From positions 64,001-128,000 of IMG/VR virus record IMGVR_UViG_3300037010_001573: a stretch of 64,000 bases of DNA; one strand, 5' to 3'. How positions within the stretch are numbered: position 1 is the first letter of the stretch; each line of letters starts with the position of its first letter. A model generated the notes under the pieces. That model ran no database searches. It saw nothing but the letters and a program-made list of their open reading frames with translations, and had not been told where the DNA came from. The stretch comes from a virus. The position numbers were made by a program, and so were the translations under genes. Positions 2,254-62,883 of the stretch are shown in pieces.

Positions 2254-3150
2254 TTATTTAAACGAAAAGAATTTATTTATTTTATTATTGAATATAGGTT
2301 TACCCCATTTTAAATCTTTATATAAACTTTCTAATTTATTAGTTAATATTGATTCAAATACTTGAGATTTATCTAAGTATTTCTCAACAAACTCAGTTAT
2401 AAAAGGAGGATCATCATAACCATTGAAACCTATTACATCTATTCGATAAGGGTTATCTTTTAAATAAGCTATAAACATTTTATCACCAATAGATAAAACA
2501 TTATGTTTTTTATCTAATTTTTTAAAACGCAACAAATCATTATAGAAAATAGCAGCTTTCGTATTAATAGGACATTTTAATCCTAAACGTGAAAATATTT
2601 CACCCGCTTTAGGAGGAGACGCAATGTAATCTTGTAAATTTTTTATTCCTGTTGGTTTTAATAATAAACGCCAATCAACAACATCAATACTATCTCTAAA
2701 TTCCAATATTTTTTTATCTATGTTCGGTTTTTTAGCACCAAACATTATATCTTGTAAAAGTTGTTTACTAAATGTTCTAAAATATGGGGGGAAATTAGAT
2801 TTCATCAAGTCTAATCCTTTAATATCTAATTCTTCTACAGGCACCCCTTCTTTATTTACAATATACATAGCATAACGTCGTTTACCAGCAAAATAACCTC
2901 GCTCTAATACTACTTCTTGTTTTAATTCAAAATAATGTGTTCGATCATGTAGATTAAATGCTTCTTGTGAAAAATTACCTATAAAGGTATTTGCTACTTC
3001 TTGTAATTCTGTTGCTATTTCTAAAACTAAAGGTATTACCTTTTCTTTATCATTTATATCTAAATCAGGATATCTATGTAATAATAAATCCTTTACATGA
3101 ATAAACAATGAATCCGTATCACTTGTTATTATTCTATCTTTATCTTCCAT
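2254..3150 (-). CDS. 43: Family B DNA polymerase, C-terminal half (motif C, thumb)
   Basis: A 298-residue protein that begins just before catalytic motif C (SDTDSLF at residues 10-16) and continues through the ELKQEVVLERGYFAGKKRYA-like region (KRRYAM near residue 90) to the thumb and C-terminus of a gp43-type polymerase. It lacks the exonuclease domain, motif A and motif B, which are in the gene at 3823-5547. An intact homing endonuclease lies between the halves. The ATG is 2 bases after the endonuclease stop. Together the halves give about 870 residues, comparable with T4 gp43 (898). I infer that the two polypeptides assemble into one enzyme, as reported for split gp43 in Aeromonas phages. 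Confidence 0.92.
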   Translation of the reverse strand: MEDKDRIITSDTDSLFIHVKDLLLHRYPDLDINDKEKVIPLVLEIATELQEVANTFIGNFSQEAFNLHDRTHYFELKQEVVLERGYFAGKRRYAMYIVNKEGVPVEELDIKGLDLMKSNFPPYFRTFSKQLLQDIMFGAKKPNIDKKILEFRDSIDVVDWRLLLKPTGIKNLQDYIASPPKAGEIFSRLGLKCPINTKAAIFYNDLLRFKKLDKKHNVLSIGDKMFIAYLKDNPYRIDVIGFNGYDDPPFITEFVEKYLDKSQVFESILTNKLESLYKDLKWGKPIFNNKINKFFSFK

Positions 3151-3152
3151 AT

Positions 3153-3782
3153 TTATTTTTTATACACCCATATAAAATTATTTGTTTTTTTCAATATTTT
3201 TCTACATACTTTAGATATGGAAGAAGCATTACTATTTGTTTGTTTTGATGCTTCTTTAATACTATGCCATTCTTTAATAAAATTTCCTTCTAAATCATAT
3301 TGAATGATAGGTTTTTGATTATTTTCGGCTGCTTTTTTATGATTTCTATTTTTAGAAACTTTACATCCCATTCCTTCAGGTTTTGGAACTCCTAATCTGC
3401 ATTGTTTCATTAATTCTCCAAACCCATATGGTTTTTTTTTACCTTTTAATGCTTTGCTTTTTCGTTGTTTTGTTATATCCGATTGTTTTTTTCCTAACAT
3501 TGGTTTTTTGTCTTTTCTCCCTTCTTTAGATTCTTCAGAATGTTTTAAAGGACCACCACCACCTTTATTTTGATTAATCAAATCAAAACCCCATTGTCTA
3601 AATTGTTCAATCCAGTAGCATTCTATCAATTTTTTATCAATAGAATTAGTTATTTCTATATCTAATATTTCAATATCTATACCATATTTTTGCCTATGTT
3701 GGTTTACTCTAGTTTTTAAATTTTTAGTATATCCTACATAAAAAGGTATTTGATTTTTCTCTAAATAATATATATAAATCAT
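3153..3782 (-). CDS. GIY-YIG homing endonuclease splitting the polymerase gene
   Basis: A complete 209-residue homing endonuclease. The GIY-YIG nuclease domain is at the N-terminus (YIYYLEK then PFYVGYTKN, residues 3-21, with the RxNQH helix following), then a basic NUMOD3-like linker rich in K and G, then a C-terminal IENR1/NUMOD1-type DNA-binding repeat (QYDLEGNFIKEWHSIKEAS to the end). It sits between the two halves of the family B polymerase gene. Flanking gaps are only 40 and 2 bases, too short for group I intron cores, so it appears to be an intronless insertion. No stop or frameshift interrupts it, so it may still be active. Confidence 0.93.
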   Translation of the reverse strand: MIYIYYLEKNQIPFYVGYTKNLKTRVNQHRQKYGIDIEILDIEITNSIDKKLIECYWIEQFRQWGFDLINQNKGGGGPLKHSEESKEGRKDKKPMLGKKQSDITKQRKSKALKGKKKPYGFGELMKQCRLGVPKPEGMGCKVSKNRNHKKAAENNQKPIIQYDLEGNFIKEWHSIKEASKQTNSNASSISKVCRKILKKTNNFIWVYKK

Positions 3783-3822
3783 ATTTTATTTTATCATAAA
3801 TATTACATTTACTATACAACGA

Positions 3823-5547
3823 TTAAGTTTTTTTATTCCCACAACCTTTAAGTGTATTTTTTATTTCATTGTTTATATAATTATTCATATTTATTATACT
3901 TTCTTGTAAAAGTCTTTGTCCTGTAAGTGTTATTGCCTTTGATATAAATTTATGCCCATCTGTATACCTCCATCCGTTTATAGCATAACAACCATAAACA
4001 TCGTTAAGTTTAATTTTGTAAGCATGTTGGCGTCTGTTATAAAAATCACCCATAATAGGATCTTTATCCACTTTAAACGCTTTTTTCATTAATACCTTAT
4101 ATTCACTCCTTTTATTAAACCAATCTGTCAATATATCACAAACAACGCTTGGTCTATCTTTTCTAAATAAAACACCCGGAGCTGAAATTGTCCAGTTTTC
4201 TTTTTCTATTAATTCCAATATTTTTCCTGCTTTAACAGTAGAACGAATAACAGATTTAGATGGTGTTAATCTTTCAATTTGTAATTCATATTCTGGATCT
4301 AGTTCTTTAAGTTCTTTAAGAGACCATTGATTATCATATTTATCTCTATTTACAATACGACCTATTAAAGTTTCAATACCTATATTCAATGAACGTATAA
4401 TAGAAGGGTATAAAGATGTAAAATCCAAGTCAATAACCCATTCATACAAACCTGGGACTGGATCTTTTAAATAACCACCTGCATATTCTTCTTTGATATC
4501 CTGTAGAGAAGGATTATAAGTGGTAGGTTTGTTAGGAGAAACAATATTATTACGTTTTAAATATGTTAATATAGCTCCTTCATTTAATACAGTAGACATG
4601 TATATTTGTTCATAAGGAACATGACATAAATGGCAAACAGTAATAGTTAAATCAATAAATTTCAGTTTTTTTTCTAATTCAACAAGAATTTCAACATCTC
4701 GAATATTATAATCGATGAATTTATCAACATCATCAACAAACAGTTTATCTAAAGAACCCAAATATTCGATTTTGCCTAAATTTACGTACTTTTCACCAAT
4801 ATCACCTAATTTGTAAGATGGTTCTTGCGCAGTAACATATTTTTTAAACAACAACATGTAATCTAAATGGTTAAGACCCGCTATTTTTGTTGTTTTAACT
4901 CCTCTAAAATCATTTTCATCGACCTTATTTAACGGTGATAAACGCACGGCCTCTGTTTTTCCGCATATTTTGGCGATTCTAGAGTAAAGATACGGTATAT
5001 CGAAGAATTCGCTGTTCCATCCTGATATTATTGTTGGGTCTATTTCATCCCACATGTCTAAGAAGCGGTTTAATAAATCCGCTTCATCTGAACATGGTAT
5101 TATATGTTTATTTCCTAATATTGAAGATTTTAATTTAGATTTTTCATCTAAAATATAACAATAATATATTTTTGTATTATTGTCATACAAAGCTATGGAT
5201 GTTATTTTTCCTTGTGGGTTTCTAACACTATCTTGTGTAAGAGCACCAGCAATTTCACATTCGATATCTAAATAAACTAAATTTTGAAAAGAAGGAACAT
5301 CATCTGAATCTGAATATGCATCTACTAATACTCTAGTGTATTTGTCTACATCACTTTCAAAAACAGCAATTTCTTTATAATCGTATGTTTTTGTAGGAGA
5401 CACACGTTTACCATCTATCGTCTTGAATTCACCAGCATCATCCAATCTATAACCGGTCGCACGATATGGGAAAGATACCCACCCTTTTTTATCGTCTTTT
5501 AAATGATACTCTTTAGTACCTCTATTGTAGTATATTGATTGATACAA
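3823..5547 (-). CDS. 43: Family B DNA polymerase, N-terminal half (exonuclease, motifs A and B)
   Basis: A 574-residue protein holding the proofreading exonuclease and most of the palm of a gp43-type polymerase. Visible motifs: Exo I LDIE (about 93-96), Exo II GWNSEFFD (176-183), Exo III YNIRD (280-284), polymerase motif A DLDFTSLYPSII (373-384) and motif B KIKLNDVYG (511-519). It stops about 50 residues after motif B, before motif C, which is carried by the next gene. The last dozen residues (LKGCGNKKT) look like readthrough into inserted DNA rather than native polymerase sequence. On its own it should be catalytically incomplete. Confidence 0.94.
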   Translation of the reverse strand: MYQSIYYNRGTKEYHLKDDKKGWVSFPYRATGYRLDDAGEFKTIDGKRVSPTKTYDYKEIAVFESDVDKYTRVLVDAYSDSDDVPSFQNLVYLDIECEIAGALTQDSVRNPQGKITSIALYDNNTKIYYCYILDEKSKLKSSILGNKHIIPCSDEADLLNRFLDMWDEIDPTIISGWNSEFFDIPYLYSRIAKICGKTEAVRLSPLNKVDENDFRGVKTTKIAGLNHLDYMLLFKKYVTAQEPSYKLGDIGEKYVNLGKIEYLGSLDKLFVDDVDKFIDYNIRDVEILVELEKKLKFIDLTITVCHLCHVPYEQIYMSTVLNEGAILTYLKRNNIVSPNKPTTYNPSLQDIKEEYAGGYLKDPVPGLYEWVIDLDFTSLYPSIIRSLNIGIETLIGRIVNRDKYDNQWSLKELKELDPEYELQIERLTPSKSVIRSTVKAGKILELIEKENWTISAPGVLFRKDRPSVVCDILTDWFNKRSEYKVLMKKAFKVDKDPIMGDFYNRRQHAYKIKLNDVYGCYAINGWRYTDGHKFISKAITLTGQRLLQESIINMNNYINNEIKNTLKGCGNKKT

Positions 5548-7013: not shown

Positions 7014-7715
7014 TTATGAATTTAATTTATAATGGGATGCTATTTCTATTGATTTAAAATATTCATCTCTAACTTCAGGTTTGTTTTTGAAAACTCCTGT
7101 TAACTCACTTGTAACCATTGCTGATCCTTTATGATTTGTTCCACGACACGATACACAATTATGTTCTCCTACTATAGAAACGGCTACACCAATATTACCT
7201 TCACACACTTTACTAACTGAGTTATGTATTGCTACTGTAAGTTGTTCTTGGATAGCTCCTCTTCGCCCAAAATGTTCTACTAGTCTATTAAGTTTGCTCA
7301 ACCCAATAACACGAGCATCTTCTCCAGGAATGTAAGCAATATGAACACGTCCTGTTATTGTTTCATGATGATGGCTACACATACTTGTTAAAGGTATATT
7401 TGTTTGTACTACCATTCCTTTAAAACCATCACTAGGGAATGAAGATATTGTAGGGGGAGCATCATACCTTCCTTTCCATTGTTCTAAAACATATTTCTTA
7501 GCAATACGTCTTGGAGTATCAGCACTATTTGGATCATTTTTCCAATCACAACCTAAAGCAGTTAAAAAATTACCATAAGCTTCAGCAGCAGCATCGATCA
7601 TTACTTCTTTATCTTCCTTGCTTAAAGGAAAACCAGGAGCAACCCCATTAGCTAACCCAACAGGAACTACTTCAAGATCATTGTAATTTTTTCGTCTATT
7701 GTCTTCTACGTTCAT
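7014..7715 (-). CDS. folE: GTP cyclohydrolase I
   Basis: A 233-residue FolE. Zinc and active-site motifs are intact: SMCSHHHE (residues 111-118; C113, H115, H116), the GLSKL and RLVEHFGRR segments (138-152), and the EHNCVSCRG loop (184-192). FolE converts GTP to dihydroneopterin triphosphate, the first step of both folate and 7-deazaguanine (preQ0) synthesis. With QueD, QueE, QueC and a DpdA-like protein nearby, the deazaguanine route is the likely purpose. The first 30 residues are a non-conserved extension. Confidence 0.96.
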   Translation of the reverse strand: MNVEDNRRKNYNDLEVVPVGLANGVAPGFPLSKEDKEVMIDAAAEAYGNFLTALGCDWKNDPNSADTPRRIAKKYVLEQWKGRYDAPPTISSFPSDGFKGMVVQTNIPLTSMCSHHHETITGRVHIAYIPGEDARVIGLSKLNRLVEHFGRRGAIQEQLTVAIHNSVSKVCEGNIGVAVSIVGEHNCVSCRGTNHKGSAMVTSELTGVFKNKPEVRDEYFKSIEIASHYKLNS

Positions 7716-7899
7716 AAATTATTGTTTTTTCTTTATTTGAAAATTTATATCCTCTAAATGTAATAAAATCTAATTCAATTTCCAAAAAATTTGCAATTTT
7801 TCTTACATCATCTATGGTAATTAAAGCATTACACCATTGCCACCATATTGAATTTAATATATCATTTATTGATATACCTGTTATTTTTAAATCTATCAT
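7696..7899 (-). CDS. 67-residue protein of unknown function
   Basis: A small gene overlapping the folE start by 20 bases, with its stop inside the folE leader. The sequence (ISINDILNSIWWQWCNALITIDDVRKIANFLEI) looks like a compact helical domain and is not low complexity. No family is recognised. It is in the queE-folE gap and so would be co-transcribed with the deazaguanine genes. Confidence 0.5.
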   Translation of the reverse strand: MIDLKITGISINDILNSIWWQWCNALITIDDVRKIANFLEIELDFITFRGYKFSNKEKTIIYERRRQ

Positions 7900-7920
7900 G
7901 CTTTTTATTCTTGAATATTA

Positions 7921-8709
7921 TCACACACATCTCTCACTCTCAAAGGCAATAATGTGGGGCCTCCAAGTTAATCTATACCCATTATCACGCACCCAATTAA
8001 ATAATCTTGGATATGATTGAAATAAAGCTTCCCTTGTATCCCCACTAGGCATAAACCATACTTTATCTTGTGGTATATCTAACATTCTAATACAACCTAA
8101 TATTTCTTCTAATGTTTGTTGATCTTCACCACTCCATACTGGTTTTAGATGGTAATCAGAATGATACGCAATTGATTTAGACATAGCTTCATAATTTAAT
8201 CTAAATTTATTATGTTGTTTTATCATTTTTTCATCAACAATATATCCTTGCGGTGTTGATACTCCTATTTTTGGATTAGAATTACTAAACTTAGGACTAA
8301 TGCTAAGTAAATTAATAGGCCAATCAGTTTCAAGAAAATGACTCCCTTCCGTTTCCATAGTAATAAAAATTCCTCTTTCATGTGCAAAATGTGTTAGTTC
8401 GTTTACTAATTTAGGCCACATAGTGGGACTCCCTCCTGTAAGCATCATCTCAGTAATGTGAGGGTTATCATCATACATTTTAATGATGTCTTGAAAAGAA
8501 TATTGAGCTTTTTCTGGGTGGATTGATGTATACCAACTATCACACCACCCTCCATCACCAAAAAAACAACGATGAGTGCATCCAGTAGTTCTTATTATCA
8601 CTGTAGGATAACCTGCTCTGCTTCCTTCTGATTGTACGGCCGTATATAATTCAATAATTGCTGACTTTTTATCTTTTTCAACTTCAGTCATTCTTGTTAT
8701 TTGTCCCAT
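7921..8709 (-). CDS. queE: 7-carboxy-7-deazaguanine synthase (radical SAM)
   Basis: A 262-residue radical SAM enzyme of the QueE family, which ring-contracts 6-carboxytetrahydropterin to 7-carboxy-7-deazaguanine. N-terminal features are typical (YTAVQSEGS near residue 22, GYPTVIIRTTGC). The cluster cysteines are C44, C48 and C56, a CX3CX7C spacing that includes a short insertion (FFGDGGW) instead of the common CX3CX2C; QueE is known to vary here. TGGSPTMWP (91-99) is the glycine-rich SAM motif. It opens a transcription unit just below a terminator hairpin. Confidence 0.92.
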   Translation of the reverse strand: MGQITRMTEVEKDKKSAIIELYTAVQSEGSRAGYPTVIIRTTGCTHRCFFGDGGWCDSWYTSIHPEKAQYSFQDIIKMYDDNPHITEMMLTGGSPTMWPKLVNELTHFAHERGIFITMETEGSHFLETDWPINLLSISPKFSNSNPKIGVSTPQGYIVDEKMIKQHNKFRLNYEAMSKSIAYHSDYHLKPVWSGEDQQTLEEILGCIRMLDIPQDKVWFMPSGDTREALFQSYPRLFNWVRDNGYRLTWRPHIIAFESERCV

Positions 8710-11830: not shown

Positions 11831-12718
11831 CTAATTGTTGTATTCTTTTAATACTTTTTGAACTGCATCTCTTGCAGTCTCCCATGTTACGGGTCCTGTT
11901 TCGTCTGCATAAGCAACGGGATCTTTTCTTCCTAATTTAATAAATGCTTCGATACGTTCTATTGAAGATGCTGACTTATAGTCTGAGAACCAAGTGTAAG
12001 TCTCTACCCAACCTCCTTCGTCTTTATACCCATCAGTAATACAAATTGGCTTATAAGATGTATTAGTTCTTGAATAAACTTCATCAAAATCTAATTCTAA
12101 CTCTTCACATAATACTTCTCCATCTTTTAAGATATCGAATTTATTACCTTCAAGATAGGGAGTAAAATATCCTACTTTTTCGGCTCCCCAATTTCCTAAA
12201 CGGAAAGCATTATCATCAGCATCTCTAAATTCAACTCTACAATCCGGGTAAATCGAAAAATCCCCAGCATGGATTCCTAATGCAATATCACACTGCTCTC
12301 CTGTACGATTTGCAATTGATAATGCTACGGCTTGAGAAATAGAAGCAAACATCTTGTTTCTGTTAGGAACAACTGTTTCTTTCATATTATCTTGCTCGTA
12401 ATGACCTTCTGGTACATCTTTACCTCCTGTTACTAAAGCTGAATCTAATAGATCAACTAATCCATCTAGTTTGATTTGACGGTAATTTACAGGAATATAC
12501 TTACCAAAATCTTCTCCTCTGTGATTAGTTTCGTAAAAGTTACTGTTAACGTAATCTACTAATGATTGAGCTCTCTCTAGCTCTACTCTGTGTTTTTGAC
12601 CATAGTCAAAACTTATGGCCGTAACAGTTGAGTATTCTTTTAAACAACGTAACAATAAGGTGCTGCTATCCATTCCACCTGAAAGTGAAACCACTACATG
12701 TTTTTTTAAATTTTGCAT
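11831..12718 (-). CDS. queC: 7-cyano-7-deazaguanine (preQ0) synthase
   Basis: A 295-residue QueC. The ATP-pyrophosphatase PP-loop SLSGGMDSST is at residues 11-20, followed by DYGQKHRVELERA (38-50). QueC converts 7-carboxy-7-deazaguanine to preQ0 using ATP and ammonia. The C-terminal zinc-binding cysteine cluster of bacterial QueC is not visible; the matching region (TSYKPIC then WFSDYKSASS) keeps one Cys. The first 14 residues repeat, with synonymous codons, the peptide of a stranded 5' fragment at 13239-13283, with an endonuclease remnant between them, so this gene is the restored full-length copy. Confidence 0.93.
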   Translation of the reverse strand: MQNLKKHVVVSLSGGMDSSTLLLRCLKEYSTVTAISFDYGQKHRVELERAQSLVDYVNSNFYETNHRGEDFGKYIPVNYRQIKLDGLVDLLDSALVTGGKDVPEGHYEQDNMKETVVPNRNKMFASISQAVALSIANRTGEQCDIALGIHAGDFSIYPDCRVEFRDADDNAFRLGNWGAEKVGYFTPYLEGNKFDILKDGEVLCEELELDFDEVYSRTNTSYKPICITDGYKDEGGWVETYTWFSDYKSASSIERIEAFIKLGRKDPVAYADETGPVTWETARDAVQKVLKEYNN

Positions 12719-12787
12719 ATTTTTAATTTTTAAAACTTTACTCCGGTATTTACAAATTATGGAGCTTTAAACTTTATTATAATATAA

Positions 12788-13238
12788 TTATTCTTTTTTG
12801 AGTTTCCAACGATTTTTAGCGGCTTCTTGCATCTTTAACCGAATTTCTTCTGATGGTTTTCTCCCTGTAGCAGCTTTACGTATCTTTTCATTTCTCTCTT
12901 CAGTATAAATTTTATCTTTCCAATCTGATATGTCCCTTTCCTTGGAGATAATCTCTAAGTTTTTGGTTTCTTTCTTGGGATGATTCTACATTCCATTTCC
13001 AATTTTTACCCTTATTAGCTCCTTTGTTACCACAATTTGTAGTGTCTTTTAATTTCCAGGTTTTACCTTGAGTGGTACTTTTTCCTATCATTCTTTTAGA
13101 TTGAGATTGTTTCCATTCTATAGTTTGAGATACAGGGTCATAACTTTTGTTTATTTTATTATAAAATAAAGGATTATTAGAGGCATCATAATATCTATTC
13201 AATGTAAATATATGAAAAAGTCAAAAGCTGCCATTTAG
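12788..13238 (-). pseudogene. Decayed homing endonuclease inserted in queC
   Basis: Between the stranded queC start and the restored queC lies a degenerate reading frame. One frame (12912-13202, no ATG) carries GKTWKLKDTT and KGKNWKWN, then a second frame (about 12788-12940) gives RNEKIRKAATGRKPSEEI and AAKNRWKLKKE, typical of NUMOD3-type DNA-binding tails of homing endonucleases. A frameshift near 12940 joins the two. The nuclease domain itself is missing or unrecognisable. No group I intron core elements were seen around it. Confidence 0.75.
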
Positions 13239-13283
13239 TTACATTCCTCCACTTAAGGATACCACAACATGTTTTTTAGACAT
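13239..13283 (-). pseudogene. Stranded 5' fragment of queC
   Basis: ATG at 13281-13283 followed by codons for MSKKHVVVSLSGGM and an immediate TAA. The peptide is the start of QueC up to the middle of the PP-loop SGGMDSS. Twelve consecutive residues (KKHVVVSLSGGM) are identical to the intact queC, yet six of the twelve codons differ and every difference is synonymous. It is the old exon left upstream of the insertion. Confidence 0.88.
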
Positions 13284-13343
13284 AATTTATAATCTAATTT
13301 GTGCCAGGTATTACTAGGATATAGGCAAATCCTTTTATAACTA

Positions 13344-14898: not shown

Positions 14899-15735
14899 TT
14901 ATTTTATTTTTCTATCATCGTATTCCAAAACTCCTTTAGAATCAGCATATGCTTTTATTTCATCAAACCGGGATATTCTAAAATTCTCACGTTCTTTTTC
15001 AGTAATACTTGCTGCTTTTACTTCAGTCCAACAGTTTGGGGTTTCATATATAACAACTCTATGAATTTTCAAACCTGTCGTTGAGTTTTTATACACTTCA
15101 TCAAACAATATTTCCATTGCTAAGAATACTTCACGTGAAATATTCTCAACAGAAGGATTACAATATTCTCCACGACCGTTTAAAGACATTTCCCATAATT
15201 TGGTACCGTATTCTTTAGTAGTATCGATAAGTTTTGTGTCTTTTGGGTTAAGAATCATACCATGATCTAATATATCATCAATCCATTGACAACCAACACG
15301 TTTGATTTCTTTAAAATCAATTGCATATCCTATTTCATCCATATTTTCAAAGGAAAACGTTAATTCGTAAAGATAAGTGTGTCCCACTTTATTAACATAG
15401 AGACTCTTTATTCTCTATTTCTTATAGTTTCCTATAAGTTTGGACTATATCATCACCAATTGGTGTTGGGCGCTCGTGGAGGTAGTATTGTTAGGCTCAA
15501 CCTCTAGTCTCTGAACTTTTTTAATCCCTTTATCCTAGATTAAACTTAGCTGCTGATTTACTACTTAGTATACTTAATTTTGTATATACCTTTATGGCTT
15601 TAGTGTTCCAGCAATTCACCCAATTTTATATCCACCGACTCTTTAATGGATATTGAAGCACTTCATAAATTCATTCATTACTCTGTGTCCCGAATCAAAA
15701 TTACCTTTTCTAGATATATATTGAGTTTTATTCAT
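14899..15735 (-). CDS. queD: 6-carboxytetrahydropterin synthase, interrupted by a group I intron
   Basis: Join of exon 1 (15646-15735, 30 codons from the ATG at 15733-15735) and exon 2 (14899-15384). Exon 1 ends in codons for FNIH and exon 2 begins GHTYLYEL, so splicing restores the zinc-binding HGH motif; exon 1 also carries GHRV (H17) and C26. Exon 2 has YAIDFKEIK, LDHGMILN, PSVENISRE and the C-terminal IHRVVIYETPNCW expected of QueD. The spliced protein is about 191 residues. QueD makes 6-carboxytetrahydropterin from the FolE product. Without splicing, exon 1 ends at an in-frame TAA right after the 5' splice site. Confidence 0.93.
15385..15645 (-). ncRNA. Group I self-splicing intron in queD (261 nt, no ORF)
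   Basis: The core elements are directly readable on the minus strand. P box AATTGCTGGAAC (15605-15616), Q box AATCAGCAGC (15549-15558), R box GTTCAGAGACTAGA (15503-15516) and S box GATGATATAGTCC (15442-15454). The 5' exon end ATATCCAT pairs with the internal guide GGTGGATAT (15628-15636), giving the obligatory U-G at the splice site. The intron ends in G. Additional hairpins include CTTATAG/CTATAAG closed by a GAAA tetraloop (15421-15438). It carries no endonuclease gene, so mobility would need help in trans. Confidence 0.95.
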
Positions 15736-60684: not shown

Positions 60685-61485
60685 TTATTGGTTTTTCAAA
60701 ATATATTCGGATACATAAACCCCATGTGCACCACTTACAGTAATACCACGTGCTGATAAAGCATCACCCACAAAATGAACATTTGGGTATGTGTTAAGAG
60801 ATAAATTATCGTAATTAACTAAAGGTTCTGGTGATAAATATTTTACTTCTGGTATATACATTCCCCAATCGTCTCCGAATTTAAATACTTTATTCATTTG
60901 TTCGATAAAGTTAAGAATATATTCTGCATATTCACCAAATGCTTCTTTGAAGGGTTGTAAGTCTTTTACGCGAATGGTTTTAATCAATTCATTTTCAGAT
61001 GTTTTGGAAGGTTCTCTTGAAGGTGAATAATAAATTCCTCTTAAAGATTTCATCCCTACTAAGTATTTAAATTGACATTTTCTTACTACCTCTCGACTCC
61101 ACTCAAATGGATTTTCAATGCCTTTGATTTCCATTAATATACCAAAGTTGGTCATATCATTTCTAAATTCTTCTCCTTTTTTAGCATGACCATTATAACT
61201 AATATCACCATATGTTTCTTCTACAGCAACATAAGCAGCATTGTTATTAGTGCAAAATGATCTTAAAGATACTTGTTCGTTTGGTTTTTGATATAATTTG
61301 AAATCATAAGATACATCAATCAATTTTTGGAAATATTTTTGTGGGCTTTCAAATCTACAGCCTATTTGAACTGATTTAGGTTCAGTTGATAAGTCATATT
61401 CTTCAGCTAAAGATTTACCAAAATCAATACCTGATTTACCTACTGCGAATATTAATGAGTCGTATTTAATTTTATTTGTTTCCAT
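60685..61485 (-). CDS. FAD-dependent oxidoreductase (COG2509-like), C-terminal part
   Basis: A 266-residue C-terminal portion of a flavoprotein dehydrogenase. Its beginning (YDSLIFAVGKSGIDFGKSLAEE) is the strand and glycine turn that follow the FAD domain insert, and it ends with HFVGDALSARGITVSGAHGVYVSEYI, the classic C-terminal FAD-binding GD motif. The N-terminal half is at 62341-62883, with a frameshifted GIY-YIG element and a small gene between them. Its ATG lies inside the end of the small gene. COG2509 proteins have no established reaction. Confidence 0.85.
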   Translation of the reverse strand: METNKIKYDSLIFAVGKSGIDFGKSLAEEYDLSTEPKSVQIGCRFESPQKYFQKLIDVSYDFKLYQKPNEQVSLRSFCTNNNAAYVAVEETYGDISYNGHAKKGEEFRNDMTNFGILMEIKGIENPFEWSREVVRKCQFKYLVGMKSLRGIYYSPSREPSKTSENELIKTIRVKDLQPFKEAFGEYAEYILNFIEQMNKVFKFGDDWGMYIPEVKYLSPEPLVNYDNLSLNTYPNVHFVGDALSARGITVSGAHGVYVSEYILKNQ

Positions 61486-61735
61486 CTGTTATTTTAATTG
61501 TACTGTAAAAATTTGGGTAATAGTTTTTTTGAGAATATTTAGAAATAAATTTGCTTTTTAAATATTTTGGTTTGATAAAGAAATGCTTAATTTTTAATAA
61601 GAAATTCTTAAATTTATTTTTATACCAAACTGTTTCTCCATTTATTTGAGTAGCAACAGTAACACAAATATATGGAGCCCAAACATATCCTTTTTCTAAA
61701 CTTCCTTTATCTATTTTTATATCTTTATTTTCCAT
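61472..61735 (-). CDS. 87-residue protein inside the split flavoprotein locus
   Basis: Overlaps both neighbours (19 bases upstream, 14 downstream). Its first half reads KGYVWAPYICVTVATQINGETVW and its end SKFISKYSQKNYYPNFYSTIKI. This spacing of APY, a basic SxKYxxK and a PxFYxxI end resembles the C-terminal motif of the gp23-type capsid protein in this window (VYAPYVPLL ... TRYAKKMLRPEFYGRI), with a 20-residue Lys/Phe-rich insert. The resemblance is weak; function unknown. Confidence 0.5.
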   Translation of the reverse strand: MENKDIKIDKGSLEKGYVWAPYICVTVATQINGETVWYKNKFKNFLLKIKHFFIKPKYLKSKFISKYSQKNYYPNFYSTIKITDGNK

Positions 61736-62387
61736 CCTTTATATGTTTTTGCTTTGTTTGTGACTAAATTATATATTCCTTTATAAGTTAAATTATATTG
61801 ATTTTGAAAATCATATCTAATACCTTCAAATTCTTCATTAGTATTTATATTAATAAAAATATATATTTGATTATTTACAAATTTATATTTTCCTTCTTCA
61901 GTATGTTTAGGTTTACCTTTTTGTTTTAAATTTTTAGATAATTTAGCTTCTTCATTCATTTTAAAACCTTTAGGTGCTCCTATCTTTATACCAGGAGTTT
62001 TAATATGATTTAAACCTTTATCTTTTCTAATTTTTATTCTATTTTGTTTTACTCCTATTTTTTAGATCTAATTTTTTCAATAGTTTCATCAGAGTGTTTA
62101 TTCAATCCTCCTCCACCTTCATTTTGATTGATTAATTGGAATCCCCATTGTTTAAATTGTTGAATCCAATGGTTTTCCCAAAATTTCCAAATTTCTTTTA
62201 TATTATCACATTCATCGATTAAATTAAAAATAATATCTTCTCCAAATTCTCTCTTCCAATCCGCTTCTCTAGATTTAGGATTTTTTGTTTTTCCTATATA
62301 AAATGGAATATTGTTTTTTTCTAAATAATATATAAAAGCTTTATTTTTTATCTTCAATTGGTTTGTATTCGACTTCATTAGTTTCAA
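61717..62387 (-). pseudogene. Frameshifted GIY-YIG homing endonuclease inserted in the flavoprotein gene
   Basis: The first part (62055-62387) has the GIY-YIG nuclease domain: FIYYLEKNNIPFYIGKTKN, then FWENHWIQQFKQWGFQLINQNEGGGG and HSDETIEKIRSKK before a stop. A -1 shift at an A6 run (just before the stop near 62055) opens a second part reading IGVKQNRIKIRKDKGLNH, GAPKGFKMNEEAKLSK and, at the end, IYNLVTNKAKTYKGWKIKI, a typical DNA-binding tail. It closely parallels the intact endonuclease in the polymerase locus. Decay or a homopolymer error explains the shift. Confidence 0.87.
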
Positions 62388-62883
62388 AATTTATATTGGT
62401 GACCTCATGCTGCCATAAGAAATTAATACCCTTATCAACTAAATATTGATACCAAGCAACTGCTATAAGAGAAAGATAATTACTTCCTATATGCCATACA
62501 GGAAATAAACGTAATCCAAAGTATGGTTTAATAAATTCAGGTTCTTCAACAGGATCAGAACAAAATATTTCTTCTGGTTTAGGGTGAAAGCGTCTAAAGT
62601 TACTAATAACTTGATCCATCAGTTGCATTGCTTTGTCTTCACCACAATACTTGGATAATTGACCCCCAATGGCTGTATGGTATGTGAGTTTACCATCAGA
62701 GTATCCTCCAGCTCCTGCAAACCCACACATAACCTCTTCTGGTTTTCTTTCATAAGGGTCCTTGCCTTTATCTATAATTGTTATAAGTTCACCGGGATAA
62801 CCCCCATCTACTAATTTTAATGCTGCGTTAATCCCAGCTACTCCACTTCCTACAATTACAATTTTCTTTTCGTATTTACTCAT
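62341..62883 (-). CDS. FAD-dependent oxidoreductase (COG2509-like), N-terminal part
   Basis: A 180-residue protein with the dinucleotide-binding start KKIVIVGSGVAGINAALKL (6-24), then DKGKDPYERKPEEVMCGFAGAGGYSDGKLTY (38-68), the distinctive COG2509 pattern. It runs to NFETNEVEYKPIEDKK and stops exactly where the GIY-YIG element begins. The missing half is at 60685-61485. Such flavoproteins are rare in phages. Whether the halves assemble is unknown. Confidence 0.85.
   Translation of the reverse strand: MSKYEKKIVIVGSGVAGINAALKLVDGGYPGELITIIDKGKDPYERKPEEVMCGFAGAGGYSDGKLTYHTAIGGQLSKYCGEDKAMQLMDQVISNFRRFHPKPEEIFCSDPVEEPEFIKPYFGLRLFPVWHIGSNYLSLIAVAWYQYLVDKGINFLWQHEVTNINFETNEVEYKPIEDKK

Follow-up and report, generated by a model that had tools for sequence, protein, structure and literature searches.

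Homing elements lodged in essential sequence have been thought to need either splicing (introns, inteins) or a gene that tolerates being split. The locus described here, the queuosine-pathway gene queC in a 64,000-nucleotide window of viral DNA (bases 64001-128000 of the 161,676-base virus record IMGVR_UViG_3300037010_001573), contains an insert that is very probably a site-specific homing cassette of phage queC, consisting of an endonuclease, a queC leader and a substitute 5' end. The closest described systems are fungal mitochondrial mobile open reading frames (ORFs), which replace the 3' ends of genes, namely atp6 in Allomyces and atp6, atp9, cox2 and nad3 in Glomus, with hybrid transcripts shown for the replaced genes in Glomus (PMC3630166); an initial annotation of the window had named fungal mitochondrial atp6 as a precedent for replacement gene ends. 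Among phages, free-standing homing endonucleases such as the T4 seg and mob genes (PMC2988022) and nucleases at exchange boundaries (PMC10448857) have been described, as have genes split by an endonuclease, namely Aeh1 nrdA by mobE and T4 gene 60 by mobA (PMC2988022).

The fungal ORFs and the queC cassette are alike in that an endonuclease ORF lies within a conserved gene, a foreign end is in frame with the native core and the displaced native end is an untranslated stub; the nuclease families of the fungal ORFs vary by host (LAGLIDADG, GIY-YIG). The fungal elements, however, replace the 3' end (C-terminus), whereas the queC cassette replaces the 5' end with its start codon and a leader RNA, occurs in double-stranded DNA phages and involves two unrelated nuclease families at one gene. 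As no C-terminus is exchanged in queC, the cassette works like the Allomyces/Glomus system and is not a member of it. With the T4 seg and mob genes it shares intron-less GIY-YIG and HNH nucleases, spread by conversion and co-conversion of flanking DNA, but those genes sit between genes or split them, and the consulted sections of both accounts (PMC2988022, PMC10448857) describe no substitute gene end. In the genes split by mobE and mobA the halves remain separate coding regions, whereas queC again encodes a single complete protein and its old end is dead. A literature search found no case of 5'-end replacement in a phage, which is weak evidence since subscription papers lay mostly outside its scope. 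The kind of element is thus known; the 5' end, the phage setting, the leader RNA and the two nuclease families are its new features.

The locus is read on the minus strand, and its features are as follows (relatives are given by locus number, L001 onward).

13571-13344, minus strand: small conserved gene upstream of the queC locus.
13302-13333, minus strand: leader A, the ancestral queC leader, an H-type pseudoknot (P1 AGGAT/ATCCT, P2 TGCC/GGCA) found at the same place in insertion-free relatives.
13239-13283, minus strand: displaced old queC start, a dead 5' fragment encoding MSKKHVVVSLSGGM and a stop.
12788-13238, minus strand: remnant of a GIY-YIG homing endonuclease, with the catalytic domain deleted and one frameshift, aligned to the intact GIY-YIG gene of L083.
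12740-12774, minus strand: leader B, the incoming queC leader, a pseudoknot (P1 AAGTT/AATTT, P2 GCTCC/GGAGT).
12662-12718, minus strand: replacement queC 5' end, codons 1-19, MQNLKKHVVVSLSGGMDSS; its right edge was mapped in L100/L275, and the tract in the window may be longer or shorter.
11831-12661, minus strand: body of the intact queC (PreQ0 synthase; Pfam QueC), which groups in the tree with insertion-free L002.

The order reported by the initial annotation, an old start, a decayed endonuclease and then a complete queC beginning with the same 12 residues, is confirmed base for base. The old start runs from its ATG at 13283-13281 to a TAA at 13241-13239, and the complete gene (12718-11831, 295 amino acids) matches Pfam QueC with E=8.5e-36. 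The 12 common residues are identical, and a recount agrees exactly with the earlier figure of six differing codons out of 12 (9/36 nucleotides, nt), all of them synonymous. One point had been overlooked: each copy of the start possesses its own leader, the old one at 13333-13302 and the new one at 12774-12740.

Insertion-free relatives have a single queC start, directly behind leader A and at the place of the window's upstream fragment. Among Flavobacterium phages, the immuto phages lack the insertion. The core of that fragment is one nucleotide away from the queC starts of L007, L008, L204 and L269. Against the empty-site locus L007 the window is 79% identical over 354 nt, collinear through the upstream gene, leader A and the old fragment, and the homology ends exactly at GGAGGAATG, where L007 continues into queC. 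By the position of the single start in insertion-free relatives, this collinearity and the one-nucleotide match, the upstream start is evidently the ancestral one, left stranded. The replacement model put forward by the initial annotation is thereby supported on both points that it had named as refuting: insertion-free relatives have one start and not two, located where the window has its upstream fragment, and the ancestral start is not the downstream one. The arrangement also recurs in other phages, with intact endonucleases.

Three GIY-YIG cassettes, in three phage lineages, break queC at the same bases, GGAGGNAT^GGA, and each has an empty-site relative. L083 is 97% identical to L349 over 282 nt and L336 is 90% identical to L332 over 239 nt; both homologies end at GGAGGGAT, where L349 and L332 continue with GGA. 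The layout of L083 is that of the window with an intact nuclease, namely MEKHVVISLSGGIL and a stop, the GIY-YIG gene, and then MEKTKKHVVISLSGGMDSS and onward. Its foreign tract is longer than the one mapped above, native-like sequence (by comparison with L349) returning at 58/60 after about 22 further codons. In L336 the ATG of the old start shares a base with the stop codon of the gene before it (TAATG), an overlap also found in insertion-free L312, L313 and L324.

In the window the nuclease survives as remnants 55-67% identical, in two frames, to the intact L083 protein, with alignment beginning at the first bases beyond the queC junction. The longest remnant ORF (13202-12912) is 67% identical to that protein and has no Pfam match of its own. 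Relative to L083, about 200 nt for the catalytic domain are deleted and a frameshift lies near residue 166, by which the window copy is to be regarded as dead. The L083 protein displays the GIY-YIG signature HIY...YIG and matches a PHROG homing-endonuclease profile. Its structural model finds its best PDB match in the catalytic domain of I-TevI (probability 0.99 but E=0.08), in a model of low overall confidence (mean predicted local distance difference test, pLDDT, of 55) whose first 75 residues are best. Homing-type domains are thus found in the relatives, as PHROG homing endonuclease or endonuclease VII, while the window copy is without its catalytic domain.

An unrelated nuclease occupies the same gene in other phages. 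L015 has an HNH (endonuclease VII-like) gene at the queC insertion place, and its eleven closest database relatives (L096-L106, 69-75% identity, L098 and L099 carrying the same locus) all stand immediately before a complete queC, as does that of L385 (71% identity), found later; beyond L096-L106, the next relatives have at most 38% identity. Every close member found of this family stands directly upstream of queC (13 loci, including one remnant). Broken queC starts precede the HNH gene in L096 (MAKHVVV-), L098 (MKHVVISLSREI and a stop), L103/L105 (MNKQAVLF and a stop) and L104/L106 (MKHVVS-), and L097 has leader A and a decayed start in this position. In L176 (10600-11030) the HNH gene has been lost and an unrelated short ORF stands in its place, with leader A, the old fragment, the HNH tail, leader B and the new queC start retained, a scar parallel to that of the window. 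No bacterial source of the family was confirmed among the genome contigs searched. A stretch of L015, GTTGTGG...GGAGTGTAA, was considered as a queC remnant and rejected, being the conserved 5' leader of the HNH gene. The HNH cassettes also have a conserved hairpin, TATGGNGGTTATAATATTTATAACCGCCATA, just before the HNH start codon (e.g. L105:2940-3000, L015:5220-5280), which by analogy with T4 homing endonucleases could possibly serve translational control.

The arrangement recurs in at least 16 distinct carrier loci, and in 11 of these 16 a recognisable native queC end lies displaced beyond the nuclease. The queC bodies of the HNH carriers L100 and L102 sit in the body tree with insertion-free L275, L031 and L073. 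Compared with L275, both show 53% identity from the start to SGGM and 33-44% at the DSS codons, after which 84/84 bases are identical; to the left, homology ends inside leader A (TCCAAAAAATAACGTT). These junctions indicate that a native gene received nuclease, leader and 5' end together, in a single block, and that the substitute end is joined in frame to the core of that gene, as it is in the pair L083-L349. Empty alleles are known for the HNH version (L100/L275) and for all three GIY-YIG carriers, and both junctions have been mapped by near-isogenic filled/empty pairs, as the initial annotation had proposed to do against endonuclease-free relatives.

These observations bear directly on the first alternative, in which an endonuclease and an entire foreign queC came in as a two-gene cassette and the body of the old queC was lost later. 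The related bodies of the HNH carriers L096, L101, L104 and L106 do form a clade, and conversion over long tracts may have brought the body with it. For L100/L102 this course is contradicted by bodies identical to that of L275 right after SGGMDSS, and the stretch from fragment to nuclease contains no trace of an old queC body. Carriers are, moreover, scattered in the queC-body tree: over 14 carrier rows (two of which, L096 and L178, are one contig) the endonuclease label needs 8 changes, 7 of them forced by well-supported branches, against a mean of 13.5 for random labels. The distribution of the endonuclease is sporadic and independent of the queC-body tree, with carriers scattered among insertion-free relatives. 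Import of a whole gene is accordingly judged unlikely. Still less probable is that the 5' end of queC was first duplicated in tandem and that a free-standing endonuclease then inserted between the copies. This would account for a nuclease flanked by two starts, but the copies have different leaders and come from different lineages (the fragment 1 nt from L007, the replacement identical to L002), fragments end at one common site in all GIY-YIG carriers, and no double-start locus without a nuclease or remnant occurs among the more than 190 queC loci without insertion that were examined. Splicing with the old start still in use, by a self-splicing intron or in trans, would yield the same protein, and the insertion does lie in a conserved active-site motif, the usual niche of introns; this reading is hardly credible given that no group I or group II intron, intron core RNA included, was found with Rfam (gathering threshold over the whole window, E<=10 around the locus), that a stop directly follows or closes the fragment in the window, L083, L336 and L098, that the downstream copy is equipped with a leader and a start codon of its own, and that several carriers without an old fragment still have an intact queC.

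Several results weigh against the homing cassette itself. The old fragment is absent in 5 of the 16 carriers (L015, L100, L101, L102 and L385). Leader B is missing in L083, L336, L105 and L385, so that the leader is not obligatory. HNH distances correlate with queC-body distances, by which part of the association reflects shared descent or long conversion tracts. The window's replacement is also identical over 30 bases (codons from HVVV on) to insertion-free L002, which obscures the window's immediate donor and its right-hand junction. In a comparison of the first codons with relatives, as suggested by the initial annotation, fragment and replacement come from different lineages, and the replacement core also occurs in a phage free of the insertion. 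A test of identity gradients across carriers was weak and was left unused.

The insertion-free queC start of L002 (5992-6050) has leader A, and its codons 5-14 are identical to those of the window's replacement copy; L002 could be a source, or a former carrier in which recombination between the two starts removed the cassette. Another contig, L001, has the same sequence as the window and starts (L001:1) right at the junction of the replacement, between TG and GATAGC, as expected if other alleles coexisted in that sample.

What the comparisons show is the architecture, its recurrence, its junctions and its scattered distribution on the queC body, and the replacement of the gene end is the right reading of this locus and a general one in this phage group. 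The following course is proposed. Three parts would make up a cassette: a gene for the endonuclease, a full queC leader RNA and a replacement queC start some 17-37 codons long. The endonuclease would cut insertion-free queC at the PP-loop codons, the GIY-YIG type at GGAGGNAT^GGA, inside the SGGM codons, and repair off a carrier phage in co-infection would copy the cassette into the recipient. The recipient's own leader and start would be stranded upstream, ending at or before the cut, while the start brought by the cassette would fuse in frame with the recipient's queC body and give a functional QueC without splicing. In the window the endonuclease would have decayed later and the scar stayed, because the gene now relies on the substitute start. 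That the endonuclease cleaves DNA, that the cassette homes during co-infection and that the carrier allele is immune is inferred from sequence comparison, and the natural filled/empty pairs together with intact nucleases (L083, L336, L015) make the model directly testable.

The nuclease itself may be exchangeable. Behind the GIY-YIG remnant of the window come TATATTATAATAAAG and leader B, almost the arrangement seen in the HNH cassettes L096, L101 and L104, and the tail of L083 has AAAGTTATTATATTTAA in common with the HNH tail of L100. Such common tails suggest a nuclease swap, and one nuclease likely replaced the other inside an existing cassette, although the common sequence is short and AT-rich. 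On balance, it appears that phages host splicing-free homing cassettes rendered harmless by their own substitute gene end and an interchangeable leader RNA, with a nuclease that can be swapped (GIY-YIG or HNH) at the same queC site, and with 5'-end (queC) and 3'-end (the L086 neighbour gene) versions in the same phage group. The queC cassette would represent a third route for homing in phages, replacing the end of the gene that is broken, and a means by which gene starts and regulatory leaders of foreign origin pass from phage to phage, with hybrid genes remaining once the nuclease is dead.

When other endonuclease loci were scanned systematically for gene ends present twice, only L086 (3' end) and the unproven case of L148/L149 emerged. 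In L086 (2797-4500) a complete copy of the queC-neighbour gene is followed by a GIY-YIG gene and then by a displaced C-terminal stub, KLEYYLEKDLSLQEEDIIFNINKFKQFIGR; by its layout this is the mirror-image case, a 3'-end replacement in the same phage group. In L148/L149 (2730-3970) an HNH gene is flanked by a start fragment of 38 residues and a complete gene whose start is similar, a possible 5' replacement in an unrelated phage with no relative in the phage collection.

The synonymous differences between the two starts had been read as recoding that removes the endonuclease target and blocks recombination between the copies. As stated, this is unsupported. Among 51 insertion-free queC genes with the same ten residues, pairs differ at a mean of 4.9 of the 10 codons and 46% at six or more, so that six differences are ordinary divergence, and the 30 bases shared with L002 recur there without an insertion; recoding as an adaptation was rejected as unneeded. 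A change of the target is seen only in the HNH version, GIY-YIG carriers keeping SGGM. At the insertion codon SGGM is changed to SGGL in 10/14 carrier rows against 0/130 insertion-free rows, a contrast whose Fisher value overstates the association because carrier 5' ends are related by descent, and SGGL also occurs in 5/71 further insertion-free loci, of the L105 subfamily. Protection of the carrier allele by SGGL is plausible from this pattern.

The leaders are closely tied to queC. Matches to the leader A pattern lie directly upstream of queC in 176/181 cases; of the remaining five, three lie at the ends of contigs where the start of queC is still visible and two represent the same HNH insertion. 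All leader B matches precede queC except four chance matches in coding sequence and one contig end (the L015 locus). Chance matches aside, they lie between the endonuclease, or its remnant, and queC, with one variant in L086 without an adjacent endonuclease. Both leaders parse as one H-type pseudoknot with conserved CC-ATA and AATACC, seen in the window (12740-12774, 13302-13333) and in L002-L080, L086 and L185-L302. P1 takes the forms AGCGT/ACGCT, AACGT/ACGTT, AGGAT/ATCCT, CGGAT/ATCCG, AGTGT/ACACT and AGGTT/AACCT, and P2 the forms TGCC/GGCA, GCTCC/GGAGT, GTTCC/GGAAC, GCCCC/GGGGT and GCTTC/GAAGC. P1 covaries, distinct helices forming 4.59 of 5 pairs against a maximum of 4.24 in 2000 reshufflings. 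The preQ1-I riboswitch is likewise an H-type pseudoknot of about 35 nt before a queuosine-pathway gene, but the conserved bases of the queC leaders (CC-ATA, AATACC) are different ones, and no match was found in Rfam 15, preQ1 covariance models included (window at E<=10, six relatives at E<=1). The queC leader is a candidate for a new class of regulatory RNA and, from its position, perhaps senses a queuosine precursor in the manner of a riboswitch.

Other nuclease-disrupted genes occur in the window. A GIY-YIG/NUMOD endonuclease (3153-3782) divides DNA polymerase B (2254-5547) immediately ahead of the active-site motif SDTDSLF, and there is no sign of a replacement end at that locus. A short GIY-YIG gene (62055-62387) lies between an N-terminal piece of an FAD/NAD oxidoreductase (62341-62883) and a possible second piece (60685-61485), so that the region 60685-62883 probably holds another nuclease-split gene. 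As for QueC itself, the C-terminal 110 residues of the phage protein (11831-12160) have only two cysteines; bacterial QueC has a four-cysteine zinc site, which seems to be missing here. GTP cyclohydrolase I, a QueE-like radical SAM protein and a QueD-like protein are encoded at 7014-8709 and 14899-15387 and, as predicted from their sequences, complete the PreQ0 route in this phage. In the phages of L002 (7548-7907) and L275 (2329-2708), a transfer-messenger RNA gene and many transfer RNA genes lie downstream of queC.
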